64,000 bases of DNA from Bacteroides salyersiae WAL 10018 = DSM 18765 = JCM 12988. GTDB lineage: Bacteria; Bacteroidota; Bacteroidia; Bacteroidales; Bacteroidaceae. A program made the position numbers and the translations under genes. This document shows, in pieces, positions 22,521-64,000 of the stretch. The first letter of the stretch is position 1. Every line of letters begins with the position of its first letter. The DNA lies in the NCBI RefSeq assembly GCF_000381365.1, contig NZ_KB905466.1:1819207-1883206 (forward strand). The letters run 5' to 3'. The notes under the pieces were generated by a model. It saw nothing but the letters and a program-made list of their open reading frames with translations, was not told where the DNA came from and made no database searches.

Positions 22521-24989
22521 CTATTTTCTCACCATTAGCTTGTGTGTATCCCTCCTGCCATCTATCAATACAGACAAGAAGTATACCCCACTGTCCAATG
22601 AATGAAGGGGTACATTATATGTATATTTTCCGGCAAGCAAACGATTCGTAAGATGGCTCATAAGATTTCGCCCATCGGCTGTCCACAATGAAATAGAAGC
22701 CGTTCCCGCTTTTAATAAAGAATAATGTAAAATCGCCTCTCCACCAGAATAATTCAACCACGAAACAGCATCATCGACAAGAGTTTCAGAAACCCCTACC
22801 CCTTGAGATAACGGATAATGGGCCGTAAGGTCTTTAAAAGAGATTCTTGTATCGGTAAAGGTCATCCCCGGCTTAAGATAAAACTTCATACCGGTCAGGG
22901 TCAACGGATATTCTATAAGGTCTAATGGGATTCCGTTATCCATAAAAGATATGGAATACACAGAGTCAATCCCCCAGGCAGGTTCCAACCTCACCTTTTC
23001 AAAACTTACTTTTGTGTTCGAAGCAAAATCCAAGTAAAGTTCTTTAACCAGATCGTCTTTCACAAACATCCGAAAAGAAATAGAATCGGGCAAGCTATAA
23101 AAAGTCACAGGTTTGGTAAATTCAATATATGCCGAACGGCCGGTTTTAACATCAAATACCATATTGACCCCATTATCCCATCCTACCGGTAACCCGTAAT
23201 TTTCAAACCTCAGATTAGAGAATGTACCAGTCGTTTTCATCGGCCATGACGCCATATCTGCAAAAGTCTCCTGTATCCTGTCTTCATCGGCGATTTCAAC
23301 TTTTACCTTCACACACACACTCAAATCCTCCAAAGTACCTTGCAACTCTGTTTCACCATTGGCCACTCCTTTTATTATTCCGGCTTCTACCCGGCAGCAA
23401 TCCGGATTCGAAGAAGTCCAGATAAAAGCACTTGGGTCCAACTGATAAACCTTATTTCCCGATGTTGCATCAATCCTTATCGGAAATTCGCGATGACCGT
23501 CTATCAATAGACTTTGAGGATATGCCTGTACATCCGAAACCGGAGATACAAAAACATTCAGAATGGCTTCTTTCCCATCTTTTGATGCGATAATACGCCC
23601 TCCTGTAGTATTTAAAGCAGCATGAAATACCCCATCTGCATCCACGTATCCCATATCTTCCGGTATACACCGGTAAGTAAATCCCTGTCCGCCTTTCTCC
23701 AAAACTTTACCATATTCATTAAAAGATAAAAGAGTCAACGGATTCAATGACACAGCCGTTGTATACAGGTTAGGAACTACAAAAGAGTAAGAAGCAACGG
23801 TCTCTGATTCCGGTTCAGTAGATACGACCAATAAAGCATCGGCTACCGGACGAATTTCTCCTCCACGCATCGGATAATTCAACATTTCATGATCAACTGC
23901 TATCGTTGCAGAACCGCCACTGTCAAAGTTGACAACATTCCAGGAGCCATGAACTAACATCCAATTTGCAATGTCAATACAATTCACTCCAGGACTTTCT
24001 TTTGTCCCGCCTTCCACAGTCACGATATACACCGTTTTTCCATCTTGAGACATGCCTGCCATTACCCGCGCAGAAACTTCGAACTCACGGCCATTCTCAA
24101 AATCATTGTATTCCCCATCGTGTAATTTCCCTTCGTAGGCAATGCTCGGATAACCATGAAAACCGGCAACAATATCCTTCAAAGGTTCACCGAATTTTCC
24201 TTTTACAAACTTCTGGAAAACAGCTATAACATCTCCTGCCTTAATTTTATTTTCAAAGCTTTGCACACTTTCATTTCTGGCATAGATTACATATTCGGTA
24301 GCCGATGTCTGTATCGGTGTATCAGAGACCTCCTGAACCTCGCATCGGATGTCATTACCGTTCACCGTCCAGGTATCCAACGGTTTTATCTTAATATACA
24401 AACCGGGGTCTGTCAGTATCCTGGAATTCATACGATTGAATAGAATACAATTACCTACCAGAGCCGTAGCACTCGAGTTATAATAATCTATATTTACTTC
24501 ACTACCATCCTTCAAAAGAATTTTCGAGATCAAAGACGGATAAAACACAGCAGCAGTCTTTTCTTGTGAGATTGCAAAAATAGAGCGTCCGCTTCCGGAA
24601 GCAAAGGGTATCTCGCCATTGCTAATATTAACACCGATACACACCCCGGATTCATACACAAAGAAATCATGGTTGAATGCCGCACAAACGCGATGTCCCG
24701 GGTATGTATTGCTTCTTGACATACTCATCACGGTTTCCCGAGAGACATCGGGTACTTTATTGTGTGATTGCACTTGTTCTATTTGCGTATAAGGATTAGT
24801 AAGATCAATAGTAGTAACCCACATTAACACAGGCTTATCCCGATAAGCAATCTTTGTGTATTGTACACCGGCTCCCAACGTATAATGTTCCAATGTATCC
24901 GGAGTTCCCCATAAAGGTTCCTGAGCTCTCAAAGTCGTAGCAGAAATCAACAATGCCACATACAACAAAAATATATTCTTCATTTCCAT
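22521..24989 (-). CDS. Diverged NAGPA/DUF2233 phosphodiester glycosidase-like protein
   Basis: 822 residues, signal peptide to about 22 (the Met at residue 3 is an equal start candidate). The N-terminal 400 residues are a NAGPA (phosphodiester glycosidase) domain, the family of the human mannose-6-phosphate uncovering enzyme, which hydrolyses GlcNAc-alpha-1-phosphodiesters. Its motifs are altered compared with the three tandem paralogues: FNHDFF for N(G/A)DF(F/Y), ARVMAG for PRT-x-x-G, and DSGGS for DGGGSS. Ig-like domains (about 430-580), a beta-jelly-roll (about 590-740) and a C-terminal sorting-like domain (about 765-822) follow. It is the last gene of the operon, and activity may be reduced or shifted. 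Confidence 0.8.
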   Translation of the reverse strand: MEMKNIFLLYVALLISATTLRAQEPLWGTPDTLEHYTLGAGVQYTKIAYRDKPVLMWVTTIDLTNPYTQIEQVQSHNKVPDVSRETVMSMSRSNTYPGHRVCAAFNHDFFVYESGVCIGVNISNGEIPFASGSGRSIFAISQEKTAAVFYPSLISKILLKDGSEVNIDYYNSSATALVGNCILFNRMNSRILTDPGLYIKIKPLDTWTVNGNDIRCEVQEVSDTPIQTSATEYVIYARNESVQSFENKIKAGDVIAVFQKFVKGKFGEPLKDIVAGFHGYPSIAYEGKLHDGEYNDFENGREFEVSARVMAGMSQDGKTVYIVTVEGGTKESPGVNCIDIANWMLVHGSWNVVNFDSGGSATIAVDHEMLNYPMRGGEIRPVADALLVVSTEPESETVASYSFVVPNLYTTAVSLNPLTLLSFNEYGKVLEKGGQGFTYRCIPEDMGYVDADGVFHAALNTTGGRIIASKDGKEAILNVFVSPVSDVQAYPQSLLIDGHREFPIRIDATSGNKVYQLDPSAFIWTSSNPDCCRVEAGIIKGVANGETELQGTLEDLSVCVKVKVEIADEDRIQETFADMASWPMKTTGTFSNLRFENYGLPVGWDNGVNMVFDVKTGRSAYIEFTKPVTFYSLPDSISFRMFVKDDLVKELYLDFASNTKVSFEKVRLEPAWGIDSVYSISFMDNGIPLDLIEYPLTLTGMKFYLKPGMTFTDTRISFKDLTAHYPLSQGVGVSETLVDDAVSWLNYSGGEAILHYSLLKAGTASISLWTADGRNLMSHLTNRLLAGKYTYNVPLHSLDSGVYFLSVLIDGRRDTHKLMVRK

Positions 24990-25007
24990 CCTATAATTAT
25001 AGATGAA

Positions 25008-25052: not shown

Positions 25053-27551
25053 TCAATTTCCCACGAATATCTTTTGTGAAACAGTTCCCCCTGAGCTAAA
25101 CCCGGCTTCCATTATACAAATGCCCTTTGGCAATCCGCCAAGACTCATTCGAGACGTATCCACATACCGCAGTAACTTGCCCGATAAAGAATACAATTTC
25201 ATACATACGATTTCTTCACTATTCGCCACGACTTCATTGGTCTCGGCAATATAACTGAAAGAGAAAGTCGAAACCGTTTCAGACGTTATCGATGTCAATG
25301 TATTGTCGTAAACCAAGACATTATCTATATAAATAGTTCCGGTATTCGTCAAAGGCCGTTCTTTCTGCCTAATTTTCAAACCTGTAAATGTGTATGTCTT
25401 CCCCGCAGGCAAAGCATCTAAAGAGACCTCCACAAAACTCCAATCGCAGAAGGTGAGATCGGTCAGTTTGAGTTCCTGCACATCTCCGTCGGCAGAAGAT
25501 AATTGTAGCCAAACTTCATTTCCCGTCAAATCACCCAAAATATGCATACCGATTGCCCGGGTTGCATCGACTGGGAATCCGGCCGTTGTCTGATAAGCAA
25601 CCACCCCATTTGCCTCGTCGGCCGCAAAGGTATATTTCAGCAGACAAGAAGCCGCCCCGAACAGCACTTTGGACGTATTCCGGGAGGTACTTGCAGAAGC
25701 CACTTCCACACTATTTTCCGAAGAGTAGGTAAAGGCACCCGTAGCCTCCATGTCCATTCCCACAGTTCGGTCCGTAACTCTTATATCTACCGCCTTAAAC
25801 GTATAATCCATCGGTTCTACAATATCGATACCGTTCACATCTACCATATTGCGATCGATAACGACCCTATACGTTTCATTCTCAATCAATCCGCCCGAAA
25901 GCGTAAATGCCAAAGAACCGTAAGGAGCACTAACCGAATTTACCTTAATAGAACGAGGAACCTTAGATATCTCTTCTCCTTTAGAATCATAGATTTTAAC
26001 AGCATCTCTTGCCAAAGTAGAATTCAACTTATTATCAAATCTGAATTCAAAAGGTGCACTCGTACCATAATTGACATATTCCATTCCAGGAGTCGGGTAA
26101 CAGCCTAAAAGTTCCAGTTGATTGCGATTATTGGTGAAGAACTGAAAACTAAAGTCATTTTCCATCGACAGTTCGCCCGGATGTTTCAGACTTTTATCCA
26201 GTTTAACCGTATACAACGTCGAAATCTCATAAGGTTTATCCGGAGAAAAAATCATCCGATGCTGACTATCTTCAAACACAATGGAACCTTTCACCTCGGG
26301 AGTAATTGAAAATGCCGCTATGGCCGACTCTACATCCACATCCCAATTAAACTCAAATATGATTTTCGTATTACACTCCACCACTTCGTCTTCCCCGACC
26401 TGCGGAGAATAGTTGATCACCTCCGGGGGAGTCAAACGTTGCATATCCAGGCGTGCGTCCAAATAAGATGTCTCACCTGCCTTCACCTCCAGTTCATACG
26501 TCTTATCAAAATACTGATCAGCCGCCACATTTACCGTATATTTTCCGGGAGCCAGTTGCTTAAACACAAATACTCCATTATCTATATCATCTGTTGTATA
26601 CGTCAGGTTTCCCGGATTCACGGTAACGACAGCATTGTTCAACGCCAACAGTTCATCTTTCGAATTTCTGATCTTGACATGACTTCCCATATCTTTATTC
26701 CTACTATCATGTACACTTCCTGCAATATTTCCCGTCGGAATGGTACCGGCATTAAATATTTCACAAAAAGACTTGTAGAAATGCCATGCTTCCAGCCACT
26801 TATATTCCATATTCATCAGGCGGCGGGTCTCAGGAATATAATCATGCATCGAGCCCTCTGATATACATCCGGGTACAGTCAACCCTCTCAACACACCGTA
26901 TCCATTACTCCACCCCATAACGGTACGCCCAAATGTTTTATCGCCACGGACCGTATATTCGGATGCCCAACTATTCACCTCGTTTTCATAAAGATTCTTT
27001 GCAATCACCGTACTGATTTCTCTACTACGGTCCGAAAAAGGAGTGGCAGTAGGATATACATGAGTATCCCCAGGATCTACACCTGCGTATAGTTGTAATA
27101 CATAATTCGTGACCCCGGCATTACTATGAATCGACAGCATATAATCCGCTTCGGCTTCGTTAGCCATCCGGACAATCTGTGTCAATGGAGTGTCGTCCGT
27201 ATAGATAATAATCGGGTCCCCATCCTCATCCGTTACAATGTTGCCGGCCTCATCCGTCTTATAAACGGTGGGGTTATTTGACAAACGAGACATCACCACA
27301 GTAGCTCCCGCATTTTCAAGAAGCTCACGCAACTGTATTCCTTTATCAAAGTTACTCTGAGACTCCCAAAAACCATTCTGATCGCCCGGTTTGAATTTTC
27401 CAAATGGTATATTCCGGTCATCACTGTCAAATCCTCCATGCCCGGGGTTTACCAATATTGTTACTCCGGACAAATCTTGGGAATAGCCCTTATTTGCATT
27501 CAACAGAAAGAGAGCTATAATTAGATAACATATATGTTTCATAATACTCAT
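25053..27551 (-). CDS. Secreted zinc N-acetylmuramoyl-L-alanine amidase, multidomain
   Basis: 832 residues; the ATG at 27542 (Met4) is an alternative start directly at the signal peptide. The Amidase_3 domain (about 28-265) has all ligands: His in NPGHGGFD, Glu in FWESQ, His in SIHSNAG and the catalytic Glu in ISEGSMHD. It should cut the bond between MurNAc and L-Ala. Then come a carboxypeptidase-regulatory-like domain (about 270-375), two SbsA-type Ig-like domains (about 380-600), a jelly-roll module (about 605-750) and a C-terminal sorting-like domain. It begins 1 bp after the PD40 gene, a module repeated at 50827-55641. Confidence 0.88.
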   Translation of the reverse strand: MSIMKHICYLIIALFLLNANKGYSQDLSGVTILVNPGHGGFDSDDRNIPFGKFKPGDQNGFWESQSNFDKGIQLRELLENAGATVVMSRLSNNPTVYKTDEAGNIVTDEDGDPIIIYTDDTPLTQIVRMANEAEADYMLSIHSNAGVTNYVLQLYAGVDPGDTHVYPTATPFSDRSREISTVIAKNLYENEVNSWASEYTVRGDKTFGRTVMGWSNGYGVLRGLTVPGCISEGSMHDYIPETRRLMNMEYKWLEAWHFYKSFCEIFNAGTIPTGNIAGSVHDSRNKDMGSHVKIRNSKDELLALNNAVVTVNPGNLTYTTDDIDNGVFVFKQLAPGKYTVNVAADQYFDKTYELEVKAGETSYLDARLDMQRLTPPEVINYSPQVGEDEVVECNTKIIFEFNWDVDVESAIAAFSITPEVKGSIVFEDSQHRMIFSPDKPYEISTLYTVKLDKSLKHPGELSMENDFSFQFFTNNRNQLELLGCYPTPGMEYVNYGTSAPFEFRFDNKLNSTLARDAVKIYDSKGEEISKVPRSIKVNSVSAPYGSLAFTLSGGLIENETYRVVIDRNMVDVNGIDIVEPMDYTFKAVDIRVTDRTVGMDMEATGAFTYSSENSVEVASASTSRNTSKVLFGAASCLLKYTFAADEANGVVAYQTTAGFPVDATRAIGMHILGDLTGNEVWLQLSSADGDVQELKLTDLTFCDWSFVEVSLDALPAGKTYTFTGLKIRQKERPLTNTGTIYIDNVLVYDNTLTSITSETVSTFSFSYIAETNEVVANSEEIVCMKLYSLSGKLLRYVDTSRMSLGGLPKGICIMEAGFSSGGTVSQKIFVGN

Positions 27552-27552
27552 A

Positions 27553-28407
27553 TTACTTTTCCAATTCTAATACAATTATATCACCCTCCAACGTGTTATA
27601 GGCTATTCTTCCACTCGACCTATTCACAGCAGGATACATCGCTTTCTCCGTAGATGGTACCAGTATCTGCCGTTGCTTGCCATCAGCAGAAACCATCACA
27701 ACAGAAGATGAAGTTATATAATCTCCATTATCCTTATCTACCATTCCAACGATTCGATCCCTATCATACCATACCGGTGCATTCAGATATCCGATCTCTG
27801 CAAGTACTTTTCCTTTTAAATCACACACATACGTTCCTTTACCTACGGCAGTAAAGAGTATTCTGTTTCCATCCGGAGACAAACTCCCCCACAAATATCT
27901 ATCCGTTTTTTCCAACGGATGTAATACGTTTTTCAATCCATTCGTTTCAACGATCAGGCATAGTTTATCCGTATAAGCCGTCAGTGTATTGCCCATCGGG
28001 CTTCCTAAACGCTGCGCCGACAACGGACGCGCAGTCGCTGCATCTGCACAACGCACATTTTTTTCTTCTTTCCGCTGATAACACATCCATGTGTTCTGCT
28101 GACGCATATTCACTTTCTCCGTGGCCCGATAGTAAACTTGTTCGCCATTCCGGTCAAAGGCCGGATTATATCCTGCACCGTCCACTTCGGTTATCACATC
28201 AGAGGTTTTACTCTTCAGGTCGTACAAGAATAGTCCCTTATAATTTTCGGAGGTATACAACAATTCCTTCCCGTCATTACTAAAAACAGGATAAAAGCCC
28301 GGTGTCTCTTTATTTATTTTATAACTCCGCTCTACCTTTACTAATTGGGCTTGAGCAAGAAAGACATTACAGGCCAGTAATATCCACAAACAATAATTTT
28401 TCTTCAT
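27553..28407 (-). CDS. Periplasmic PD40/TolB-like propeller protein
   Basis: 284 residues with signal peptide (cleavage near LAQAQ) and no lipobox. It contains PD40 (WD40-like) blades, each with a pattern such as GFYPVFSNDGKELLYTS, GAGYNPAFDRNGEQVYYR and LWGSLSPDGNRILFTA, giving about five or six blades. TolB-like propellers bind peptides, lipoproteins or peptidoglycan partners. Its stop is 1 bp from the amidase start, and a clear paralogue (50827-51753) stands in the same place before another amidase, so it probably assists the amidase as a binding or targeting subunit. Confidence 0.8.
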   Translation of the reverse strand: MKKNYCLWILLACNVFLAQAQLVKVERSYKINKETPGFYPVFSNDGKELLYTSENYKGLFLYDLKSKTSDVITEVDGAGYNPAFDRNGEQVYYRATEKVNMRQQNTWMCYQRKEEKNVRCADAATARPLSAQRLGSPMGNTLTAYTDKLCLIVETNGLKNVLHPLEKTDRYLWGSLSPDGNRILFTAVGKGTYVCDLKGKVLAEIGYLNAPVWYDRDRIVGMVDKDNGDYITSSSVVMVSADGKQRQILVPSTEKAMYPAVNRSSGRIAYNTLEGDIIVLELEK

Positions 28408-28423: not shown

Positions 28424-30916
28424 TTAACGTTTCATGCATTTGAAAACAGCCGTTTCAGTCCCTTTATAAACTTTCAACAGATACATTCCCCTTTCGAGGC
28501 CACCATCATTCAATTTAAACTCACCTGTCTGACAAATACCCAGATTTTCCATTCTAAGCTTTCTTCCGGCAATCGAATAGATTTCATAGATTACCGGAAC
28601 ACCCTCATCCATAGCCAAATATAGATAAACACCGTCTGTACCATTCCATATTTTCATTTCATTGCTACCGGCTTCATCAGGCATCAACCCGACTCCCTGA
28701 TCATCATAAATCAAAGTAAACTCTTTCAATTCAAATGTATATTCGGTACCCACACTATGTCCGGAAGCGTTCAGAGTAAATTTCAACGAATTAAATTGGA
28801 GAGGCCAGATAGCCATATCATTAGGATCCGTCACTATATCAGACACAGGCAAATAGATTTCATTATCCTCATTCGCCTTTATATCCGAGAATTCTTTAAT
28901 GACAGCATAAGACTGATTATTCGGCAGGAGATCCAGTACGATTTTATTTAAAGGCAGTTCGTGAGGATTAAATACAATCTTCAATGCCTTAGGCAAACTA
29001 TACAGGTTTATCTTCTTCGTCAATTGAAAATACGGAGAACGGGTTGTTGCATAGGTATAATTTATGTTCAGTCTATCATTTCCGCTCATCGAAATACCTT
29101 TCAAATTGGAAGTCAACTTCAACAAAGGATCGGTAAAGTCAATTGCCGGTAACGAACCTGCCTGTGGTATCTCGACATTCACCTTTAAAGAACCTTGAAA
29201 ATCATTCATCGTACCGACTACTGTAGAAGTACCATTTGCAACTGCAGTCAATATGCCTTTCTCTATTTTACATACATTTTCATCGGCTACCACCCAATTC
29301 AAAGCATTATGATCAATCAATACCTTATTTCCCTCCAGTGTGGTTTGTACTTCGATCGGATAGGCTGTTCTTGCATCCAGAAGTACCGAATCCAGACGAA
29401 TAGCCAAATCTGCAGCTTCTTTTACCGTGACTTCTTGAGCAACCTCCAAGTCACCGTAATGAGCTGTCAGAATACCGGAAGAAGCCGTTCCCGAAACAAC
29501 AAAATTACCGGCATCATCAATATGCCCAAGTTCCGGAGAACAGGAGAATGTCACTTCCTCCAGATTTTCCTCCAAAAGGCGGTCATACCGGTTATATCCC
29601 ATCACGACGGGTTTTATAATTCCATGTCTGGGCAACTCGAATTTATAATCCAAAAAACGTAAACGCTCAATCTCCGGAGATTCCTGAGACAAATCTACCA
29701 CCAACCAGCCATTGCCTACGGCGCGTTCTTTTCCATCCGAAGGGCGATTGGCTACTTTGTTGTTTACTATTATTTCTGAAGAACCTCCTCCATCGAGTCC
29801 TATGGCATCTGCCGCACCCCAATGTTTCAAGATATCACATACCTCTGTTGTGGTCAAGCCTCTGGAAGTGGAAGTTTTCCCATCTGCCACCAAAAGATAT
29901 ACCCAGCGTTTATCTTTAGATGCTCCTACGGCCGTACGCGGATATGGAACAGCATTGTAACTTTCAGTCGTATTACGTTCGGTCAATACACCATCATACA
30001 TCAATGCCGTATTTCCTCCTATCATTTGTTCTATTTCCGGGTACGTACCAAAGTTCACACAACGTATTCCCATATGAATGGAAATTTCCTGCCCTTCAGT
30101 CAAATTACGCAAAAAGGCCCTGGACTTTTCACTTGTTCCCGAGAGCACGCACTCATCGGCGGCAATCGGATTGCCCCCTTTGTTTTCAAGCCTCCGCCCG
30201 ACTATACATTGAACAGGACTATTTACTTTCCATTTTTCCCCTGCGGCCAATTTCAAGTATACTTCCGTACGTTCTACCCCATACATCTCACTGAAGTTTT
30301 CATCCTGTCTGGTTCTCTCTCCTGCATAACGATTGAAGAAAGTCAAATCACAAGCATCACAATCGGCACGGGGGATGTTGACGTGCTGGAATTTATAAAC
30401 TCCGGCATCCCCGGCATTCACTGTCCCCTCAAATTCCATATGGTCGAATACCGGAATATTATCGGCATCTATCGTAGCAAATCCCCACCAAGCATCCCGT
30501 GGTTCACGTTGTATCTCCCCATCTCTGATACTCCCCCCACGAGGAGCTCCTAATGGAAATTCCTTATGATCCGTTACGTTAAAGAAATCACCATTGATTC
30601 CACAATAAGCCTTATGCCCTTCATACGTCAGACGCTCACAGGCACGAGTCACCAATTCCGTCCCCGGTATGCTGTCATTAGCCAAAAATGTTTCGATTTT
30701 ATTGTATGGATTTTGCATATCCAATTTCAAGATATAGGCATAAACCGGCATATCCGGAATATAAAGGGAGGTATAGACTGCTCCGGGGCCCACGACTTTA
30801 TGTTCAAGGGTATCCACGTAATACGGTTTATCGGTAATCGTTATATATCCTCCGGCATAAACCCACTGTGCGCCGCAAAGCAACAGTAATCCCCCTAATA
30901 TTTTTTTCATCTTCAT
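28424..30916 (-). CDS. NAGPA/DUF2233 phosphodiester glycosidase (tandem copy 3)
   Basis: 830 residues from the ATG at 30916; the longer frame overlaps the upstream gene, and Met at 30910 is also possible. After the signal peptide comes a NAGPA domain (about 20-400) with NGDFF, PRTAVG, VADGK and DGGGSS intact and RAVGNGW at its end. Ig-like domains, a jelly-roll CBM-like module (SPYFQL onward, about 620-770) and a C-terminal sorting-like tail follow. The family hydrolyses GlcNAc-1-phosphodiester bonds; an exported enzyme with a binding module suggests a polymeric phosphate-linked glycan. It lies 25 bp after the preceding paralogue. Confidence 0.87.
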   Translation of the reverse strand: MKMKKILGGLLLLCGAQWVYAGGYITITDKPYYVDTLEHKVVGPGAVYTSLYIPDMPVYAYILKLDMQNPYNKIETFLANDSIPGTELVTRACERLTYEGHKAYCGINGDFFNVTDHKEFPLGAPRGGSIRDGEIQREPRDAWWGFATIDADNIPVFDHMEFEGTVNAGDAGVYKFQHVNIPRADCDACDLTFFNRYAGERTRQDENFSEMYGVERTEVYLKLAAGEKWKVNSPVQCIVGRRLENKGGNPIAADECVLSGTSEKSRAFLRNLTEGQEISIHMGIRCVNFGTYPEIEQMIGGNTALMYDGVLTERNTTESYNAVPYPRTAVGASKDKRWVYLLVADGKTSTSRGLTTTEVCDILKHWGAADAIGLDGGGSSEIIVNNKVANRPSDGKERAVGNGWLVVDLSQESPEIERLRFLDYKFELPRHGIIKPVVMGYNRYDRLLEENLEEVTFSCSPELGHIDDAGNFVVSGTASSGILTAHYGDLEVAQEVTVKEAADLAIRLDSVLLDARTAYPIEVQTTLEGNKVLIDHNALNWVVADENVCKIEKGILTAVANGTSTVVGTMNDFQGSLKVNVEIPQAGSLPAIDFTDPLLKLTSNLKGISMSGNDRLNINYTYATTRSPYFQLTKKINLYSLPKALKIVFNPHELPLNKIVLDLLPNNQSYAVIKEFSDIKANEDNEIYLPVSDIVTDPNDMAIWPLQFNSLKFTLNASGHSVGTEYTFELKEFTLIYDDQGVGLMPDEAGSNEMKIWNGTDGVYLYLAMDEGVPVIYEIYSIAGRKLRMENLGICQTGEFKLNDGGLERGMYLLKVYKGTETAVFKCMKR

Positions 30917-30941
30917 ACTATTAATGTTTAATATCTCTTTA

Positions 30942-47683: not shown

Positions 47684-47703
47684 AATATAATTAATTAATA
47701 ATT

Positions 47704-49142: not shown

Positions 49143-49169
49143 TTCCTGTTCTTTTTTTTGATTTGGATA

Positions 49170-50826: not shown

Positions 50827-51753
50827 ATGAGAAAGTTTTTTCTATTGTTGCTACTTTACTTAGTCCAACAAGTTCATGCACAAGAAATCAGTGTAGTATC
50901 CGTGAAACAATTACCGAAATCAAGCATCGGTAAAAGCTATCATCCCAAATTCAGCCCTAATGGAGAATACCTACTTCTAACCTCTGATAATTATTCAGGG
51001 CTTAAAAAATTTGATTTGAAAAATGAGCAAGTATCCATTATCACCGAAGCTCCCAATGCAGGATACAACGTACAAATAAGTGCGGACGGGAATAACATTA
51101 TCTATCGAGAGCAGTCATTCAACAAGCGAAACATGAGGGAGACCGCCCTGAAGAAGATAGACTTAACTAACAAAAAGGAAAACCAACTTATCTCTCCTAC
51201 CCGAGACCTTCAATTACATAAGACCATAAATGGGAACCTTGTATATGTAAAAAACAATAAGTTATCAACCAAAAGAATATATGGAGAAAAAATAAAAACA
51301 GTACCGGATATTGTCAATATCGAAAATCGGCAATTGGTCTTATATCGGAACGGTGAACGTAAAGAGATCTCTCCCAACGGAAAAAACTGTAGCTATCTAT
51401 GGCCTTCCATCTCGCCCGATGGAACAAAGTTATTATATAAAGTTGCCGGCAAAGGTACATTCATCTCCAATATCGACGGCAGCAGCCCGATTCGAATAGC
51501 TAATTTAAACGCCCCTGTCTGGCTCGGGAATGAATGGATTATAGGGATGAATGATAAAGATAACGGAGAACGAATCCTCTCTTCATCCATTGAAGCCGTT
51601 TCGATAGACGGACAAAAACATCAAACCCTCAGCGATCCTTCCACGATAGCCATGTTTCCGGCTGTCTCAACCGACAACTCATCTATCGCTTTCAATAGTG
51701 ACAACGGAGATATTTACCTCATGAAAATCAATATCAAACAAAAAGCCAAATAA
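50827..51753 (+). CDS. Periplasmic PD40/TolB-like propeller protein, paralogue
   Basis: 308 residues, signal peptide ending near VHAQ, no lipobox. Blades follow PD40 patterns: SYHPKFSPNGEYLLLTSDNY, AGYNVQISADGNNIIYRE, LWPSISPDGTKLLYKV and MFPAVSTDNSSIAFNS. It is clearly paralogous to the protein at 27553-28407, sharing for example NAPVW and MxDKDNG segments near the same places. Its stop is 3 bp from the start of an amidase, as in the first pair. Probably a targeting or regulatory partner of that amidase. Confidence 0.8.
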   Translation: MRKFFLLLLLYLVQQVHAQEISVVSVKQLPKSSIGKSYHPKFSPNGEYLLLTSDNYSGLKKFDLKNEQVSIITEAPNAGYNVQISADGNNIIYREQSFNKRNMRETALKKIDLTNKKENQLISPTRDLQLHKTINGNLVYVKNNKLSTKRIYGEKIKTVPDIVNIENRQLVLYRNGERKEISPNGKNCSYLWPSISPDGTKLLYKVAGKGTFISNIDGSSPIRIANLNAPVWLGNEWIIGMNDKDNGERILSSSIEAVSIDGQKHQTLSDPSTIAMFPAVSTDNSSIAFNSDNGDIYLMKINIKQKAK

Positions 51754-57319: not shown

Positions 57320-58768
57320 ATGACTCCAGTTTCTATTTTAATCACAATCGTGGCGTATTTCATTATCCTGTTTACGGTTTCATACATCGCAGGCAGAAAG
57401 GCCGATAATGAAGGTTTTTTCGTTGGGAACCGTAAATCGGCCTGGTATGTAGTGGCTTTTGCCATGATCGGCTCCAGTATATCCGGAGTGACATTCGTTT
57501 CCGTTCCGGGTATGGTAGCGGCAAGCGGATTCTCCTATTTGCAGATGGTACTCGGTTTCGTCGCAGGGCAAATCATTATCGCCTTTGTTTTGATACCGCT
57601 TTTCTACCGGATGAATTTAGTATCCATTTATGAGTATCTGGAGAACCGGTTCGGTCTGTCTTCTTACAAGACCGGTGCATGGTTCTTTTTCATCTCAAAA
57701 ATGTTAGGAGCAGCCGTGCGGTTATTCCTTGTTTGCCTTACACTACAACTGTTGGTATTCGAGCCTTTCCACCTGCCGTTTATTCTTAATGTCATCATTA
57801 CCGTAGCTCTTGTCTGGCTATACACTTTCCGTGGCGGTGTAAAATCACTGATATGGACCGATTCCCTGAAAACGTTCTGTCTGGTAGTATCCGTAGTTCT
57901 ATGTATCTATTATATCGCTTCCGATCTTAAGTTAGGTTTCGGAAGTATGATAGCCACCATCTCCGAGAATGATTTTTCCCGCATGTTCTTTTTCGATGAT
58001 GTGAATGATAAGCGCTACTTCTTCAAGCAATTCCTGGCGGGAGTGTTCACAATGATCGCTATGACCGGACTGGATCAGGACATGATGCAACGCAATTTAA
58101 GCTGTAAAAATTTTAAGGATTCACAGAAGAATATGATTACCAGCGGTATTTCCCAATTCTTCGTCATCCTGTTATTTCTCATGTTAGGAGTGTTATTATA
58201 CACATTTACCGCACAACACGGAATTGAAAACCCCGAGAAAAGCGACGAATTATTCCCGATGATAGCTACCGGTGATTATTTCCCGGCCATAGTGGGCGTA
58301 CTGTTTATTATCGGACTGATTTCATCTGCTTATTCGGCAGCCGGTTCGGCTCTGACCGCCTTGACAACTTCTTTTACAGTAGACATATTAGGAGCAAAAA
58401 ACAAAGCAGAAAATGAATTGGTAAAGATACGCAAACGTGTACATATCGGCATGGCCATCATCATGGGCATTGTCATCTTCGTGTTCAATCAATTGAATAA
58501 CACCAGCGTAATCGATGCTGTCTACATCTTGGCCAGTTACACCTACGGACCTATTTTAGGACTTTTTGCTTTTGGCATTTTCACAAAAAAACAGGTACGC
58601 GATAAATATATCCCCATAGTAGCCATTGTTTCTCCCATCCTCTGCTTTATCCTGCAAGAAAATTCGGAGAAGTGGTTTAACGGATATCAGTTCAGTTATG
58701 AGTTACTGATATTCAATGCATTGTTCACTTTTATAGGTCTTTGCCTGCTTATTAAAAAGAAAAAATAA
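57320..58768 (+). CDS. Sodium:solute symporter (SSS family)
   Basis: 482 residues with about 13 membrane helices. SSS-family segments include DNEGFFVGNRKSAWYVVAFAM at the start, SVPGMVAASGFSYLQM, TGLDQDMMQRNLSCKN and SSAYSAAGSALTALTTSF. SSS carriers bring in sugars, sialic acid or similar solutes with sodium. In Tannerella forsythia the inner-membrane MurNAc carrier MurT is an SSS-type protein. Its position directly after a MurNAc-releasing enzyme suggests the same job here, though no etherase (MurQ) gene is visible in the window. The substrate is inferred from context. Confidence 0.88.
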   Translation: MTPVSILITIVAYFIILFTVSYIAGRKADNEGFFVGNRKSAWYVVAFAMIGSSISGVTFVSVPGMVAASGFSYLQMVLGFVAGQIIIAFVLIPLFYRMNLVSIYEYLENRFGLSSYKTGAWFFFISKMLGAAVRLFLVCLTLQLLVFEPFHLPFILNVIITVALVWLYTFRGGVKSLIWTDSLKTFCLVVSVVLCIYYIASDLKLGFGSMIATISENDFSRMFFFDDVNDKRYFFKQFLAGVFTMIAMTGLDQDMMQRNLSCKNFKDSQKNMITSGISQFFVILLFLMLGVLLYTFTAQHGIENPEKSDELFPMIATGDYFPAIVGVLFIIGLISSAYSAAGSALTALTTSFTVDILGAKNKAENELVKIRKRVHIGMAIIMGIVIFVFNQLNNTSVIDAVYILASYTYGPILGLFAFGIFTKKQVRDKYIPIVAIVSPILCFILQENSEKWFNGYQFSYELLIFNALFTFIGLCLLIKKKK

Positions 58769-58800: not shown

Positions 58801-60669
58801 ATGAATAAGAAAATATATACCGGTATTCTATTTTTGTTCGCTGTATTAACCGGCATCCGGGCGCAGATCGGGGAGCACTTTCGTTTTGCTCTCCTGACAG
58901 ACATTCATGTCACCCAAAAAGGAACCGCCTTTGACGATCTCCAAAACTCCATTCACCAAGTGAACAGAACGCAAGATATCGACTTCGTACTGGTAACGGG
59001 TGACATCACAGAAGAGGGTGACCGTGCTTCCATGCAAAGAGTGAAAGCAGCTCTCGGCCAATTAAAAGTCAAATATTATATCATTCCCGGAAATCATGAA
59101 ACAAAATGGAGCGAAAGCGGAGTGACGGATTTCGGGCATATTTTTGGCGGAGAACGTTTCAAATTCGAACATAAAGGCTTTCTCTTTTTAGGATTCAATT
59201 CCGGACCATTAATGCGTATGGCCGATGGTCATGTCGTTCCGCAAGACATCACCTGGCTTAAGAAAGAATTGAAAGAGGCCGGAAAAGAGAAACCCGTATT
59301 TCTGGTCACTCACTATCCGATGCTAAAAGGCGATGTGGATAATTGGTACGACGTAACAGACGCTGTGCGCCCTTATAACATCCGCGCTTTTCTGGGCGGG
59401 CATTACCATCTCAACAAATTCTTCTCATACGATGGTATTCCCGGAATCATCAACCGTTCCAATCTGCGTGGAAAAGAAGCAATTGGTGGGTACAACATTT
59501 ATGAAATCACCCCGGATTCCCTTCTTGTCTATGAACAGAAAATTGGTAAGGAGCCTCAAAAGTGGTGCTCGCTCTCATTAGTCCACTCATATTATGACAA
59601 AAAAGGAGCAACAGACAAATATCCCGATTACTCCGTAAACAAAGAGTATCCGCAAGTAAAAGAAAAATGGTTAGTACAAACCGGTATCGGTATTTATTGC
59701 TCACCGGCAATAGCCGATAAGCAAGTTTTTGTAGGTGATGATATGGGCTTTCTGACCTCCTATAGCCTTCAAAAAGGGAAAAAACAATGGAGTTTCCATT
59801 CCGGCAACCGTATAGTAGGAACACCGGCGGTAGCCGACGGCATAGTCGTATTCGGCTCAGCCGATAAGAAGATTTACGCGTTGAACGCAAACAATGGAGA
59901 ATTACGCTGGGAAGTAGAAGCCCAAGAACCAGTCCTGGGTGCTGTGACCATTGATAACGGAATAGTTTATATAGGGGCCAGCGATCATACATTCCGCGCT
60001 ATCGATCTCTATACCGGAAAAATCAAATGGACATACACAGGTGTAAAAGGTTATATAGAAACCCGCCCTCTGATTGAAGAAGACAAGGTGATTTTTGGAG
60101 CATGGGATAACACACTCTACGCCCTCAACAAGAATACCGGAGAAGAACTGTGGAAATGGACAGGCGGATTAACCCGTATGCATTTCTCTCCTGCAACAGT
60201 ATGGCCGGTAGCCGCTAATGGCAAAGTATTCATTACTGACCCGCAACGTGCCATGACTGCCATCGATTTGGCAACAGGAGAGACCATATGGCGTACTTAC
60301 CAGTCTACCGTACGCGAAACAATCGGATTGTCTGCCGATAAAAAACGGGTATACAGTAAGACAATGAATGACAGCATCGTCTGCTACTCTACCCTAGGAG
60401 ACAAGCCACACCAGTTATGGAGCTCCAATGTCGGCTTTGGTTATGAGCATGCTCCTTCCATGCAAGTCGAAAAAGACGGAGTAATGTTCGGCAGTACGAA
60501 AGGAGGGCTTATCTTTGCACTGGAGCCATTAACAGGCAAAGTTCTATGGAAGTACAAAATCGGTAACTCTCTGATTAATACCGTCGTCCCTATCAATCGC
60601 CATCAGGTATTATTCACGGCTACCAGTGGAGAAACCGGACTGTTAGAGTGGAAAGAACCAAAAGAATAA
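58801..60669 (+). CDS. Secreted metallophosphoesterase-PQQ propeller fusion
   Basis: 622 residues, signal peptide ending near IRAQ. Residues about 25-260 are a calcineurin-like phosphoesterase with DIH (34-36), GD (67-68), GNHE (97-100), THYP and GHYH, so the two-metal site is complete. Residues about 280-620 are PQQ-like (YWTD-type) propeller blades with repeated VFGSADKKIYALNANNGELRW and IYIGASDHTFRAIDL patterns. The phosphatase would act outside the cytoplasm, and the propeller may bind substrate or a partner. It follows the symporter by 32 bp. The target is unknown. Confidence 0.85.
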   Translation: MNKKIYTGILFLFAVLTGIRAQIGEHFRFALLTDIHVTQKGTAFDDLQNSIHQVNRTQDIDFVLVTGDITEEGDRASMQRVKAALGQLKVKYYIIPGNHETKWSESGVTDFGHIFGGERFKFEHKGFLFLGFNSGPLMRMADGHVVPQDITWLKKELKEAGKEKPVFLVTHYPMLKGDVDNWYDVTDAVRPYNIRAFLGGHYHLNKFFSYDGIPGIINRSNLRGKEAIGGYNIYEITPDSLLVYEQKIGKEPQKWCSLSLVHSYYDKKGATDKYPDYSVNKEYPQVKEKWLVQTGIGIYCSPAIADKQVFVGDDMGFLTSYSLQKGKKQWSFHSGNRIVGTPAVADGIVVFGSADKKIYALNANNGELRWEVEAQEPVLGAVTIDNGIVYIGASDHTFRAIDLYTGKIKWTYTGVKGYIETRPLIEEDKVIFGAWDNTLYALNKNTGEELWKWTGGLTRMHFSPATVWPVAANGKVFITDPQRAMTAIDLATGETIWRTYQSTVRETIGLSADKKRVYSKTMNDSIVCYSTLGDKPHQLWSSNVGFGYEHAPSMQVEKDGVMFGSTKGGLIFALEPLTGKVLWKYKIGNSLINTVVPINRHQVLFTATSGETGLLEWKEPKE

Positions 60670-60697: not shown

Positions 60698-62164
60698 ATG
60701 AAAACTACAATTAATTGCTTCATCCCTTTTGCAGATGCAGCACAGGCCGAAAAGACAATACAGGGTTTGAAATCGTCAAACCTGGTAAAAGATATATATT
60801 TGTTAGTAACGGAAGACACGGAAGTTCCTCTCCAGGGATGCCGGATTCTGCACGTGCCGGCACTCAATTCCACTGCAACCATGCGCATAATAGCTGCCCA
60901 CTCCGATGCCGACTACACACTGTTTTATACTAAGTACACTACACTAAAACTGGGCATGTTTGCCCTCGAACGCATGACCCGCATTGCAGAAGACAGTGTT
61001 GCCGGCATGGTATACGCCGACCATTACCAAGTATCAGAAGGGATTCAAAAAAATGCTCCTGTAATAGATTACCAGTTTGGCAGTCTTCGCGATGATTTCA
61101 ACTTCGGATCGGTTTTGCTATACAAGGCAAGTGCCCTGCAAGAAGCCGTCACCCGAATGAAAACCGACTATCAATTTGCCGGCCTGTATGACCTGCGGCT
61201 TAAACTCTCGCAAAAGGAATCGCTGGTTCACATCAACGAGTATCTCTATTCGGAAATAGAAAACGATACCCGAAAAAGCGGTGAAAAAATATTCGATTAT
61301 GTAGACCCCAAAAATCGAGGAGTACAAATAGAGATGGAACAAGCTTGCACAGAACATCTGAAAGAGATAGGCGGCTATCTGGCTCCTACCTTCAAAAAGA
61401 TCGAATTCGATGCCACCGATTTTGAATATGAAGCTTCTGTCATTATTCCGGTACGCAATCGCATCCGTACCATCAAGGATGCCATCCGTTCGGTATTAAA
61501 CCAAAAAACGGATTTCAAATTCAACCTCATCGTCATCGACAACCACTCTACTGACGGTACAACAGATGCGATCCGTGAATTTGCATCCGACGACCGTCTC
61601 ATTCACATCCTGCCCGAACGCAATGACTTAGGTATTGGCGGGTGTTGGAATCTCGGAGTGCATCATGATAAATGTGGAAAATTCGCCGTACAATTGGATA
61701 GTGACGATGTATACAAGGACGAAAACACCCTAAAAACAATGGTTAATGCGTTCTATGAACAAAACTGTGCAATGGTGGTAGGTACCTATATGATGACGGA
61801 TTTCCACATGAATATGATTGCTCCGGGCATCATCGACCATAAAGAATGGACTCCCGAAAACGGACGCAACAATGCCCTGCGTATCAATGGGCTGGGTGCT
61901 CCACGTGCTTTTTACACACCGGTATTACGAGAAATCAAAGTCCCCAACACCAGCTATGGAGAAGATTATGCTCTCGGACTCAATTTCTCCCGCCGGTACC
62001 AGATAGGCCGTGTTTACGAGGTAGTATATTTATGCCGCCGTTGGGACGATAATTCCGACGCTTCATTGGACATTATAAAAATGAACGGACACAACCTGTA
62101 TAAAGACCGTATCCGCACTTGGGAATTACAGGCCCGCATTGCCATGAACCGTCATCAAATGTAA
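60698..62164 (+). CDS. Family 2 glycosyltransferase with N-terminal extension
   Basis: 488 residues, no signal peptide. Residues about 1-245 form an extra domain with its own GT-A-like look (LVKDIYLLVTEDTE, DADYTLFYTKYTTLKLGM). Residues about 246-400 are a canonical GT2 core: ASVIIPVRNRIRTIKDAI, LIVIDNHSTDGTTDAI, NLGIGGCWNLG-like LGIGGCWNLG and the metal-binding LDSDD. It probably transfers a sugar from a nucleotide donor in the cytoplasm. It is encoded between the phosphoesterase and DUF4922 genes with short gaps. The product is unknown. Confidence 0.82.
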   Translation: MKTTINCFIPFADAAQAEKTIQGLKSSNLVKDIYLLVTEDTEVPLQGCRILHVPALNSTATMRIIAAHSDADYTLFYTKYTTLKLGMFALERMTRIAEDSVAGMVYADHYQVSEGIQKNAPVIDYQFGSLRDDFNFGSVLLYKASALQEAVTRMKTDYQFAGLYDLRLKLSQKESLVHINEYLYSEIENDTRKSGEKIFDYVDPKNRGVQIEMEQACTEHLKEIGGYLAPTFKKIEFDATDFEYEASVIIPVRNRIRTIKDAIRSVLNQKTDFKFNLIVIDNHSTDGTTDAIREFASDDRLIHILPERNDLGIGGCWNLGVHHDKCGKFAVQLDSDDVYKDENTLKTMVNAFYEQNCAMVVGTYMMTDFHMNMIAPGIIDHKEWTPENGRNNALRINGLGAPRAFYTPVLREIKVPNTSYGEDYALGLNFSRRYQIGRVYEVVYLCRRWDDNSDASLDIIKMNGHNLYKDRIRTWELQARIAMNRHQM

Positions 62165-62172
62165 GGACAAAG

Positions 62173-63111
62173 ATGGATACAAAACAGAAAATAGAACGGT
62201 TGCTAACCGACCAGCTTTCTGCATGGGAGTTGGCCGGAAACAATTATGCAGCATTAACCCGGATTAAAGTCAAAGACCTAAATGTAAACGGGATGCACTA
62301 TAAAGTACAATTTAATCCTGCACGCATTGTCTCTTCGGCAGCCAAAGTAGATGCCCAATCCATACAAGAACGGAAATGTTTTCTTTGCCCCGCCAACCTC
62401 CCTGCCATGCAGAGAGGGATTCCATTCAAAGATAATTATCAGATACTGATTAACCCGTTTCCGATTTTCCCGAAGCACCTTACTGTTCCGGCTTTAGAAC
62501 ACGTGGACCAACGTATAAAAAAACGTTTTGGAGACATGCTCGATCTGGCGGCTATTGCCGAAGATTACATCGTTTTTTATAACGGTCCGAAATGTGGTGC
62601 TTCCGCTCCCGACCATGCTCATTTTCAAGCTGGCAATAAAGGTTTTCTCCCTCTTGAACAAGAATGGAGGAATAAGAAAGCCGGAAAGATTGTCACCTAC
62701 AGGACAGCGTCTCTTTCTTATCTGGATGATGCTCCACGAACCACTCTGGTTATAGAAACCGGAAACCGGGAAGACGCCATCGCACTATTCAACCTTGTAT
62801 ACAACGCAATGGAACTCAAACCGGGAGAAGACGAACCCATGATGAACATTCTTGCATGGACAGAAAACAGCCAATGGATTGTTTGCATTTTTCCACGCGC
62901 CAAGCACCGCCCGTCCTGCTATGCGGCAGCAGGAGACGCCAATATCCTCATCAGTCCGGCATCCGTAGATATGGGAGGCGTATTCATCACCCCGCAGGAA
63001 AAAGACTTTGAAAAGCTAACGGCAACAGACATTATGTCTATACTCGGAGAAGTCTGTCTGGACACAGATGAGTTTCGTAAACTAAGACAACGCATAAAAG
63101 AACAATTATGA
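62173..63111 (+). CDS. DUF4922, GalT/HIT-like nucleotidyl transferase-type protein
   Basis: 312 residues from the ATG at 62173, 8 bp after the glycosyltransferase stop (the longer frame from 62119 overlaps it). CxxC at C69/C72 may bind zinc. The HxHxQ motif of GalT and Ap4A phosphorylases is present as H148-A-H150-F-Q152 after CGASAPD. DUF4922 has no assigned reaction, but such folds move a nucleotide to or from a sugar phosphate. The stop overlaps the SpoIID start as ATGA, so the two are translationally coupled. A role in sugar-1-phosphate handling is a guess. Confidence 0.8.
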   Translation: MDTKQKIERLLTDQLSAWELAGNNYAALTRIKVKDLNVNGMHYKVQFNPARIVSSAAKVDAQSIQERKCFLCPANLPAMQRGIPFKDNYQILINPFPIFPKHLTVPALEHVDQRIKKRFGDMLDLAAIAEDYIVFYNGPKCGASAPDHAHFQAGNKGFLPLEQEWRNKKAGKIVTYRTASLSYLDDAPRTTLVIETGNREDAIALFNLVYNAMELKPGEDEPMMNILAWTENSQWIVCIFPRAKHRPSCYAAAGDANILISPASVDMGGVFITPQEKDFEKLTATDIMSILGEVCLDTDEFRKLRQRIKEQL

Positions 63112-64000
63112 GAGAGCCCAAAGTACATGTCGGCATCCTGTCCGAAACAAAAATAGAATTTATTTTTCCGGATACTTATCGTGTCAACGAAGAAGAAGTA
63201 TCCGGAAAACAACTTGTCCTTTTTGATAATGGTAAGATTCTCTGGAAAAACAACCGTTACGATGAATTGCTGTTTGAATCCTTGCGGGAAGAGACTGACT
63301 CTTTCGAATTATTAGATGTAACGATCGGCATCAATTTCCATTGGGAACGCAAGGAGAACCAACGTTTTCACGGAGCACTGAAATTTATTGTAGAAGATGA
63401 AAAGATAACCGGTATCAATGTCATCCATGTAGAAGATTATTTAACCAGTGTCATCTCTTCGGAAATGAGCGCAACCGCTTCTTTGGAACTGCTGAAAGCC
63501 CATGCAGTCATTTCGCGCAGTTGGTTACTTTATCAGTTGAAAGTTGAAAGTGGAAAGTGGAAAGTTGCTATGCAGCATAATAACGCAGCCAACTCTCAAC
63601 TAAATAAGGACTCTCAACTTTCAACTTTCAACTTTCAACTAATAAAGTGGTACGACCGGGAAGACCATATGCACTTTGACGTATGCGCCGATGATCATTG
63701 TCAACGCTACCAAGGAATCACCCGGGCAAGCACTGAAATGGTAGAGCAAGCCATCCAAGCTACCCGGGGACAGGTATTAACATCCGAAAATAAAATCTGC
63801 GATGCGCGCTTCTCTAAATGTTGCGGAGGGGCCTTCGAAGAATTTCAATACTGCTGGGAAGACGTAAAACACCCCTATCTTGTCAAACAACGAGACAGTA
63901 AAAAAGCGACCTTCCTACCCGATCTACGTATCCATTCAGAAGCAGAGAAGTGGATACGGACCTCTCCTGATGCATTCTGTAATACGAAAGAAAAGAGAAT
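63108..64000 (+). CDS. SpoIID/LytB-domain protein, truncated by window, repeat read through in frame
   Basis: 297 residues visible from the ATG overlapping the DUF4922 stop; the end lies outside the window. SpoIID features are EDYLTSVISSEMSATASLELLKAHAVISRSWL, then HFDVCADDHCQRYQGI and FSKCCGGAFEEFQYCWED. Bacillus SpoIID cleaves denuded peptidoglycan glycan. No signal peptide is visible, which is odd for a wall enzyme. Between SWLLYQ and KWYDREDH about 35 residues are encoded by an inverted low-complexity element (63535-63640) that keeps the frame open. Confidence 0.85.
   Translation, partial: MREPKVHVGILSETKIEFIFPDTYRVNEEEVSGKQLVLFDNGKILWKNNRYDELLFESLREETDSFELLDVTIGINFHWERKENQRFHGALKFIVEDEKITGINVIHVEDYLTSVISSEMSATASLELLKAHAVISRSWLLYQLKVESGKWKVAMQHNNAANSQLNKDSQLSTFNFQLIKWYDREDHMHFDVCADDHCQRYQGITRASTEMVEQAIQATRGQVLTSENKICDARFSKCCGGAFEEFQYCWEDVKHPYLVKQRDSKKATFLPDLRIHSEAEKWIRTSPDAFCNTKEKR
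63535..63640. repeat. GTTGAAA-type inverted repeat inside the SpoIID gene
   Basis: The left arm (63535-63567) repeats AGTTGAAAGT/AGTGGAAAGT. The right arm (63591-63640) repeats its complement, ACTTTCAACT. The core at 63568-63590 reads CTATGCAGCATAATAACGCAGCC in two blocks and resembles the core of the element at 18170-18200 (both have TAxCGCAGCC). The whole element is translated without a stop. Confidence 0.85.

Follow-up and report, generated by a model that had tools for sequence, protein, structure and literature searches.

A candidate peptidoglycan utilization locus beside the N-acetylmuramic acid salvage genes of Bacteroides salyersiae

The stretch of the Bacteroides salyersiae WAL 10018 chromosome analysed here (the window, 64,000 nucleotides, whose coordinates are used throughout) comes from a genome of 5.31 Mb in 6 contigs, and between positions 22521 and 64000 it carries genes predicted to break down bacterial cell walls and to take up their sugars. 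A first-pass annotation had seen in this 42-kb region one gene set for cell-wall foraging. Pfam and NCBIfam scans of the open reading frames (ORFs), from which the domain calls below are taken, found every gene it had named in its place, but the region consists of three units, and the functional unit reaches about 11 kb past position 64000 into a further stretch of the same genome (L009); a single 42-kb operon was rejected on strand and gaps. Operon A has 12 genes on the minus strand, from 47707 down to 22521 with intergenic gaps of -41 to 132 bp, in the order SusC, SusD-like_2, u42117, PKD lipoprotein, GHL10, u36046, NAGPA1, NAGPA2, NAGPA3, PD40a, Ami1 and NAGPA4 (Table 1). A kinase gene lies upstream of it on the same strand. 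Operon B (50827-55641, plus strand) is formed by PD40b and Ami2, and operon C begins at 56103 on the plus strand with NamZ1, the symporter SSS, the phosphoesterase-propeller gene MPP, a glycosyltransferase gene (GT), DUF4922 and SpoIID, continuing in L009 with genes for an AmpG-like transporter of the major facilitator superfamily (MFS), NamZ2, an FAD/FeS protein, a DUF5009 protein, BadF2 (MurK), MurQ and a beta-lactamase/GDSL protein (BlaGDSL). The gene set is more than a chance assembly, since four of the five NAGPA genes of the genome lie here and the operon-A set recurs, whole or largely, in 12 further genomes.

Table 1. Genes and sequence elements of the locus, by position in the window
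Feature	Coordinates	Strand	Evidence
NAGPA4, divergent NAGPA protein with altered motifs	22521..24989	-	PF09992 58.7 bits
Ami1, zinc amidase (Amidase_3) with Ig-like domains	25053..27551	-	PF01520 45.6 bits
PD40a, TolB-like propeller, paired with Ami1	27553..28407	-	PF07676 30.6 bits; TolB propeller 37.5 bits, below its cut-off
NAGPA3, predicted phosphodiester glycosidase	28424..30982	-	PF09992 96.8 bits
NAGPA2, predicted phosphodiester glycosidase, T9SS tail	30942..33386	-	PF09992 101 bits; PF18962 43.5 bits
NAGPA1, predicted phosphodiester glycosidase, T9SS tail	33460..35913	-	PF09992 108.5 bits; PF18962 33.2 bits
u36046, predicted beta-propeller, T9SS tail	36046..37500	-	TIGR04183 33.3 bits; AlphaFold2 mean pLDDT 85.7
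GHL10 glycosidase, predicted cutter of peptidoglycan glycan strands, borderline T9SS tail	37553..40381	-	PF02638 221.6 bits
PKD surface lipoprotein, predicted glycan binder, operon-A marker	40445..42103	-	PF00801 48.6 bits
u42117, lipoprotein, conserved operon-A member	42117..42962	-	no Pfam family at E <= 0.001
SusD-like_2 surface lipoprotein	42990..44651	-	PF12771 100 bits
SusC, TonB-dependent outer-membrane importer, first gene of operon A	44666..47707	-	TIGR04056 660 bits
Palindromic 18-mer AGTTCTGATAGAACTTGG, copy 1, 294 bp upstream of SusC	48001..48018	-	exact match
K1058-type sugar kinase	48294..49172	-	8oqk 461 bits; MurK 8oqw 249 bits
Palindromic 18-mer AGTTCTGATAGAACTTGG, copy 2, 1,093 bp upstream of operon B	49717..49734	+	exact match
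PD40b, TolB-like propeller, operon B	50827..51753	+	PF07676 22.7 bits, cut-off 20.9
Ami2, zinc amidase with T9SS tail, operon B	51757..55641	+	PF01520 49.5 bits; PF18962 53.5 bits
NamZ1, exo-beta-N-acetylmuramidase-like, first gene of operon C	56103..57167	+	NamZ_N 250.5 bits; NamZ_C 58.1 bits; PDB 4jja 676 bits
SSS sodium/solute symporter	57320..58768	+	PF00474 99.3 bits
MPP, calcineurin-like phosphoesterase fused to BamB-like propeller	58801..60669	+	PF00149 62.9 bits; PF13360 131.8 bits
Glycosyltransferase-like gene of recycling operon	60698..62164	+	PF00535 79.5 bits
DUF4922/Ap4A-phosphorylase-like gene of recycling operon	62119..63111	+	PF16269 219 bits
SpoIID/LytB gene, cut by window end	63108..63998	+	PF08486 85.3 bits; TIGR02669 103 bits; 448 aa in L009:315-1661

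Operon A contains the SusC/SusD pair (TIGR04056, PF12771) by which a Sus-type polysaccharide utilization locus (PUL) is recognised, and the two lipoprotein genes alongside it bear out the importer with surface lipoproteins of the first-pass annotation. With Sus-type PULs it has in common such a pair, surface lipoproteins and secreted glycan-active enzymes in one operon; it differs in its predicted substrate, peptidoglycan, in its amidases and phosphodiester glycosidases and in its linkage to the salvage of N-acetylmuramic acid (MurNAc). SusC is 47-58% and SusD 42-53% identical to their counterparts at six operon-A loci outside the genus, whereas the other SusC genes compared are 25-38% identical to the window SusC over aligned segments, and this difference suggests that the operon-A loci have one substrate in common. 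Relatives of u42117 adjoin the PKD gene in the operon-A loci read. The model of u36046 found only assorted propellers in Foldseek, with TMq <= 0.41 among the matches listed.

The predicted wall-active enzymes of the locus belong to three kinds. The GHL10 family includes DigH of E. coli, and the only PDB match of the operon-A GHL10 protein is Cwp19 of C. difficile (245 bits, residues 24-354). The operon-A protein has the GHL10 domain in common with both, but is longer, has a tail like those of the type IX secretion system (T9SS) and is encoded in a SusCD operon. Cwp19 is described as a lytic transglycosylase (PMC6016235) and DigH as a hydrolase of denuded glycan (PMC12288456). Two further GHL10 genes lie about 8 kb apart elsewhere in the genome (G000:C2:144265-153535, where G000 is the genome of the window), and the similar close pairs in many members of the genus are perhaps housekeeping copies.

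The two amidases were confirmed, and Ami1 positions H38, E63, H142 and E232, which we take to be the zinc ligands and the catalytic glutamate, are invariant in 10/10 aligned amidases, the protein of genome G248 aligning poorly around the first two. The PD40b-Ami2 pair is paralogous to PD40a-Ami1 (33% and 37% identity). Such PD40-amidase pairs recur in other operon-A loci; PD40b-Ami2 is also found in a Bacteroidales metagenome-assembled genome and a Paludibacter contig, and near operon A in G313 and G746.

All four NAGPA proteins score well above the PF09992 cut-off of 25 bits (58.7-108.5 bits). The best PDB match of NAGPA1 is 3ohg, the NAGPA entries 6pki and 6pkg being weaker, and NAGPA1-3 keep the PRT, DGR, DGGGS and PSD motifs common to the PDB NAGPA entries and 3ohg, with DGK in place of DGR in NAGPA3. 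Domain and motifs are thus those of the human uncovering enzyme and 3ohg (NAGPA/DUF2233), from which the present proteins differ in their length of about 820 aa, in the T9SS tails of some and in occurring in one to four copies near amidases. When homologues of NAGPA2 were sought, 1574 of 7996 scored candidates were relatives, and among the 120 listed most were of about 820 aa with a T9SS tail, several of them named Muribaculaceae. NAGPA frees phosphodiester-linked sugars (PMC12419801, citing Das et al. 2013), and its domain has been noted in proteins predicted to be at the surface or to act on walls (PMC11188070, PMC12419801).

The location of these enzymes was judged from their T9SS tails (cut-offs 23 bits for TIGR04183 and 27 for PF18962). 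Four members of operon A are over a cut-off: NAGPA1 and NAGPA2, like Ami2 of operon B, by Pfam and NCBIfam, and u36046 and GHL10 by NCBIfam only, the last being borderline (TIGR04183 23.5 bits; PF18962 24.5 bits). NAGPA3 (18.8 bits) and NAGPA4 (22.7 bits) fall below the cut-off of 23, and no tail was listed for Ami1, PD40a or PD40b in the scans of either database. The genome has a SprA/Sov gene (SprA_N 709.7 bits), SprA/Sov being the one T9SS component searched. Enzymes so tailed would lie outside the outer membrane, from where the cell's own sacculus is hard to reach. The substrate, left by the first-pass annotation as foreign or own wall, can therefore be narrowed, a foreign wall being the better reading of the tails and of the SusCD importer.

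The gene content of operon C identifies it as the first half of a known operon, that for MurNAc recycling in Tannerella. The T. forsythia genes xanthan lyase-gtf-gtf-lytB-ampG-ybbC-murT-murK-murQ form one transcript (PMC5388701), upstream of which lies the kinase K1058 (PMC10465942). The order SpoIID/LytB-AmpG-NamZ-MurK-MurQ is found in L009, with the FAD/FeS gene inserted, and a K1058-type kinase precedes the operon at 48294-49172, operon B lying between the kinase and NamZ1. Content and order of operon C with L009 are thus those of Tanf_08345-08385 (K1058, GT, DUF4922, SpoIID/LytB, AmpG, NamZ2, DUF5009, MurK, MurQ), DUF4922 holding the place of the second gtf. The window genome has NamZ1, SSS, the phosphoesterase and the FAD/FeS gene in addition and is without the Golvesin gene that stands between SSS and MPP in relatives; that gene (Golvesin_C, with an Amidase_3 match of 22.2 bits against a cut-off of 27) may by its place be the xanthan-lyase gene. 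No SusC/SusD, NAGPA or T9SS hydrolase is mentioned for Tannerella in the parts of the sources available. MurQ exceeds the cut-off of its NCBIfam equivalog (TIGR00274, 311.7 against 302).

Two assignments of the first-pass annotation have to be revised. The BadF-like kinase at 48294 is present, its PF01869 score of 19.3 bits being below the cut-off but its match to a solved sugar kinase reaching 461 bits; it is not, however, the MurNAc kinase MurK. It matches the K1058 structures with 461 and 460 bits (8oqk/8ow7) and the MurK structures with 249 and 248, and is 72% identical to Tannerella K1058 (the paper's PDB codes 8QQ- are taken as 8oq- of the PDB table, since 8OW7 and 8OW9 agree in both). 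The turnover of K1058 on MurNAc is given as severely reduced (PMC10465942). The MurK orthologue is BadF2, outside the window at L009:8413-9249 (MurK 408 bits, K1058 276 bits; best match 1zxo, an uncharacterized protein, 420 bits). Equation of the SSS gene, which is indeed present, with the MurNAc transporter MurT is doubtful. In T. forsythia murT is directly upstream of murK (PMC5790795, PMC5388701), a place taken in the window genome by the DUF5009/NagX-like gene, SSS standing elsewhere; the stretches read from the six operon-A genomes of other genera showed no SSS relative, yet within the genus the gene adjoins the locus, for example in G828, G753, G756 and G816. One paper assigns MurT to the sodium symporter superfamily in one place and to the MFS in another. 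The NamZ-like exo-muramidase was confirmed by both of its domains, and SpoIID is present as had been said, although its gene runs past the window end.

The distribution of operon A was followed with two markers. A family search for NAGPA gave a match in 70/295 sampled Bacteroidales, and 20-kb stretches were read around 16 of the places found (frames of about 700-1,080 aa and two of about 470-500 aa, a selection leaving out 16 places with frames of 1,387-1,424 aa and many shorter ones); operon A was present in five of the 16 (L098, L099, L108, L109, L110). The PKD marker matched 23/295 Bacteroidales at E <= 1e-10, 16 of the matches being short or partial (E >= 7e-14) and seven near full length (E <= 3e-85), the latter in genomes G000, G077, G104, G138, G248, G308 and G313 from six families. 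Within the genus it was found at E <= 1e-30 in 7/158 genomes (G000, G746, G753, G756, G762, G816, G828) and in 5/93 of those with a completeness of 90% or more and a contamination of 5% or less, and in a sample of the class in the window's own genome only (1/396). In all, the union of the order and genus sets, with G000 in both, gives 13 genomes with operon A whole or in part, so that the search of other Bacteroidales suggested by the first-pass annotation did reveal a conserved gene set. The order SusC-SusD-u42117-PKD followed by GHL10, NAGPA, PD40 and amidase is seen in the genus relatives and also in five genomes of other genera. Variations occur: NAGPA precedes GHL10 in G104 and G248, where the u36046 match is weak (37-40 bits), Ami1 of G746 and GHL10 of G762 each read as two frames, and operon A of G816 ends after GHL10 at a contig end.

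The key observation is that operon A lies near genes of the recycling operon (the core), at least one of which is found within 10 kb of it in 11/13 genomes, the window's own genome G000 included. Operon A runs on the same strand into K1058-MPP-GT-DUF4922-SpoIID-AmpG-NamZ2-FAD-DUF5009-MurK-MurQ in G828, G753 and G762, and in G138 K1058-Golvesin-MPP-GT-SpoIID-AmpG-NamZ2-FAD-DUF5009-MurQ stands directly behind Ami1. MurQ and MurK are directly upstream of SusC on the same strand in G077, while in G248 the FAD gene is 5 kb from operon A and is followed by NamZ2, DUF5009, AmpG, SpoIID, DUF4922, GT, Golvesin, MurK and MurQ. G756 and G816 have the layout of the window without operon B and NamZ1. In G313 FAD, K1058 and BlaGDSL, then Ami2-PD40b, lie near operon A. 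The contig of G746 starts 312 bp before SusC with the core out of view, its other flank (genes g19-g01) being as in the window. Core genes were found at only 1/11 other NAGPA loci (L100-L107, L111-L113), the one being L105, the core of G308 itself. Fisher's test of 11/13 against 1/11 gives p = 3e-4, and for the first seven genomes the estimate under random placement is about 4e-8 for six or more of them. A side observation in G248 is an extra GHL10-like gene (212 bits) within the core between DUF5009 and AmpG (L121, joined coordinates 53377-54885).

Taken together operon A and the MurNAc-salvage genes are probably a peptidoglycan utilization locus, with which the cell would feed on the walls of other bacteria; the coordinated wall dismantling and sugar import proposed in the first-pass annotation are thus in keeping with the nearby recycling genes and with Cwp19 as the one PDB match of GHL10. 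From the gene set, its conservation and linkage, the domains and conserved residues, some T9SS tails and the SprA/Sov gene, all of them observed, we infer the substrate, the order of steps and the direction of flux as follows. The T9SS-tailed enzymes would leave the cell; NAGPA would cleave the sugar-1-phosphodiester bonds by which wall teichoic acids and other secondary polymers are attached to MurNAc; stem peptides would be removed by the amidases, and GHL10 would cut the glycan so bared. The oligosaccharides would be bound and taken in by SusC/SusD with the two lipoproteins, and NamZ, AmpG, MurK and MurQ would convert them to N-acetylglucosamine (GlcNAc) 6-phosphate.

A number of observations weigh against this reading. 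NAGPA4 is over the domain cut-off but does not keep the motifs (DGGGS reads DSGGS, and PRT and DGR are changed), motifs being altered likewise in the second NAGPA of G138 and in the NAGPA beside the core of G308, and the amidase of G248 is divergent (57 bits to Ami2, no tblastn match by Ami1). The final location of Ami1, PD40a, PD40b, NAGPA3 and NAGPA4 is uncertain, since none has a T9SS tail over the cut-off. Neither a stem-peptide peptidase nor a regulator was seen in operon A. In three genomes the linkage is incomplete: only part of the core lies near operon A in G313, NamZ and MurQ not being seen on the 63 kb read; NamZ2, about 4 kb from operon A at the contig start, is all of the core in G104; and G308 is split, with SusC-SusD-u42117-PKD-GHL10 on one contig, where no core genes occur in the 40 kb read around them, and the core on another, flanked by two PD40-amidase pairs and an 818-aa NAGPA, although this flanking of the core also counts in favour of the peptidoglycan reading. 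The PKD marker is absent from 151/158 genus genomes. Both p figures are too strong because of shared ancestry, 7/13 genomes being from one genus, and because of the mixed control, in which five of the 11 loci come from G308, a further two are G329 loci, and the stretches L106 and L113 span only 10.3 and 4.5 kb. The same-strand runs are for this reason the better argument.

It could be argued that the PUL of operon A is directed at some other phosphodiester-linked glycan, such as free teichoic acid, capsule or phosphomannan, the core serving only general amino-sugar use. Among the enzyme types NAGPA is the one that need not act on peptidoglycan, and NAGPA and GHL10 co-occur in other PULs in which the core genes of the window were not found, a further point against the peptidoglycan reading; the combination is thus not peptidoglycan-specific, and taken alone it was rejected as a signature of peptidoglycan use. 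A NAGPA gene near a GDPD gene in G012 points the same way. We nevertheless consider this explanation unlikely, as amidase and Cwp19-like GHL10, both of them activities suited to peptidoglycan, recur in operon A and it is specifically to MurNAc genes that operon A is adjacent. Slightly less probable again is turnover of the cell's own wall, in which the locus would handle its own peptidoglycan fragments and the amidases and GHL10 would aid cell separation. NamZ is near universal in sampled relatives (57/61 genomes), as expected of housekeeping, and DigH and amidases act at E. coli cell separation (PMC12288456), but several members carry T9SS tails, with which they would lie beyond the outer membrane and apart from the own sacculus, the substrates of SusC/SusD come from outside, operon A is an accessory feature in the genus, and the genome has two other GHL10 genes of the kind recurring in many genus genomes. 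The several predicted wall hydrolases with secretion signals might also be read as a lytic weapon against competitors with uptake secondary, which is very improbable given that no immunity gene was recognised, that SusCD and the two lipoproteins are recurrent members and that the enzymes suit glycan breakdown. Chance proximity of unrelated operons, for which the variable slot that operon A occupies (see below) might speak, is strongly disfavoured by the adjacency in 11/13 genomes, the same-strand runs and the random-placement estimate, and can be practically disregarded.

The peptidoglycan reading can be taken one step further at the NAGPA proteins. Wall teichoic acids are attached to MurNAc O-6 through GlcNAc-1-phosphate, and human NAGPA cuts the same kind of bond on lysosomal proteins. 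This linkage, together with the phosphodiester chemistry of NAGPA, suggests a possible release of teichoic acids. The NAGPA proteins might then be bacterial uncovering enzymes for walls, which cut GlcNAc-alpha-1-phosphate-6-MurNAc, free wall teichoic acids and open the wall to amidase and GHL10, so that Bacteroides, gut species included, would have a dedicated PUL for intact Gram-positive walls; this proposal is tentative and on balance rather doubtful. The phosphate left on MurNAc could be removed by the phosphoesterase encoded at 58801. No experimental link between NAGPA and teichoic acid was found in the literature searched, among the matches listed.

Nor was a peptidoglycan PUL found described in the literature searched, by titles and abstract starts and with most subscription papers outside the search; SusD was absent from one such search, among the matches listed. 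The statement of the first-pass annotation that no described PUL has this gene set accordingly holds, within that literature, for operon A, but not for the stretch from NamZ to SpoIID, which is part of a described operon (PMC5388701). The locus would be a Sus-type PUL joined to a recycling operon that was itself already known. Dense bacterial communities are rich in peptidoglycan, and a conserved operon that links MurNAc salvage with secreted hydrolases and import by SusC/SusD would explain how some Bacteroides gain the wall sugars of their neighbours. Operon A would supply a candidate for the outer-membrane step in the uptake of muroglycans, and enzymes able to detach teichoic acids could be sought there. 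The proposal is directly testable, as the whole locus occurs in a genome (G753) matched to Bacteroides sedimenti by an exact marker-protein match over residues 51-200, and Bacteroides nordii carries the PKD marker at 77% identity.

The setting of operon A was compared across 48 loci, which are stretches around NamZ matches from 36 same-genus and 11 same-order genomes. Many of them contain counterparts of g09-g19, K1058 and NamZ-SSS-MPP-GT-DUF4922-SpoIID, with identities of about 40-94%; NamZ matches of about 45-50% (e.g. G003, G012, G026, G021) represent other loci. The slot between argC (g19) and NamZ varies across the genus, being near empty or holding only K1058 or different SusCD pairs. 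In G022 g19, K1058 and NamZ are about 150 and 220 bp apart, G036 has another SusC/SusD pair between g19 and K1058, and SusC/SusD pairs stand upstream of NamZ in G017, G031, G018, G007, G032 and G034. It appears from this varying content that the slot gains and loses SusCD systems. A GHL10 gene is present in the slot of G032 (218.5 bits) and a short GHL10-like gene in that of G018 (34.3 bits); no NAGPA or PKD relative was found in the 48 loci.

NAGPA genes were also seen in other surroundings. The fifth NAGPA gene of the genome (571 aa) belongs to another locus, which has a SusC gene along with DUF6259 and GH3 genes (L010, G000:C1:2397000-2415000). Clusters of NAGPA and GHL10-type genes occur in other loci of the genus (L049-L050, G021:C1:372000-403000; L051, L052, L053 and L054), among them one sialate-esterase (SASA)-NAGPA fusion and one GHL10-metallophosphatase fusion, and the core genes of the window had no match in these stretches. 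The NAGPA gene of G012 encodes a 1122-aa DUF4988-Glug-NAGPA protein near a GDPD glycerophosphodiesterase gene (L055, G012:C34:172000-191900), possibly a teichoic-acid cluster to judge from its genes.

No hybrid two-component system, extracytoplasmic function sigma factor or SusR was found among the scanned ORFs of 22-64 kb. The palindromic 18-mer of Table 1 occurs in exact form only twice in the 5.3-Mb genome, each time in the window, upstream of operons A and B as these are read; two sites with 2 mismatches lie elsewhere. Six genus relatives showed no copy when up to 3 mismatches were allowed, and the 18-mer is a weak hint of a possible operator common to operons A and B. A scan of 47500-51000 for promoters and terminators gave 13 promoter-like sites against 19.5 in shuffled sequence. 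The 1.65-kb non-coding gap before operon B contains an inverted repeat (50335-50439) with 45-nt arms, 87% complementary, and a 15-nt loop. One small RNA, BTnc201 (RF04177, 111 bits), was detected by Rfam at its gathering threshold, outside the locus at 17227-17326 on the minus strand.

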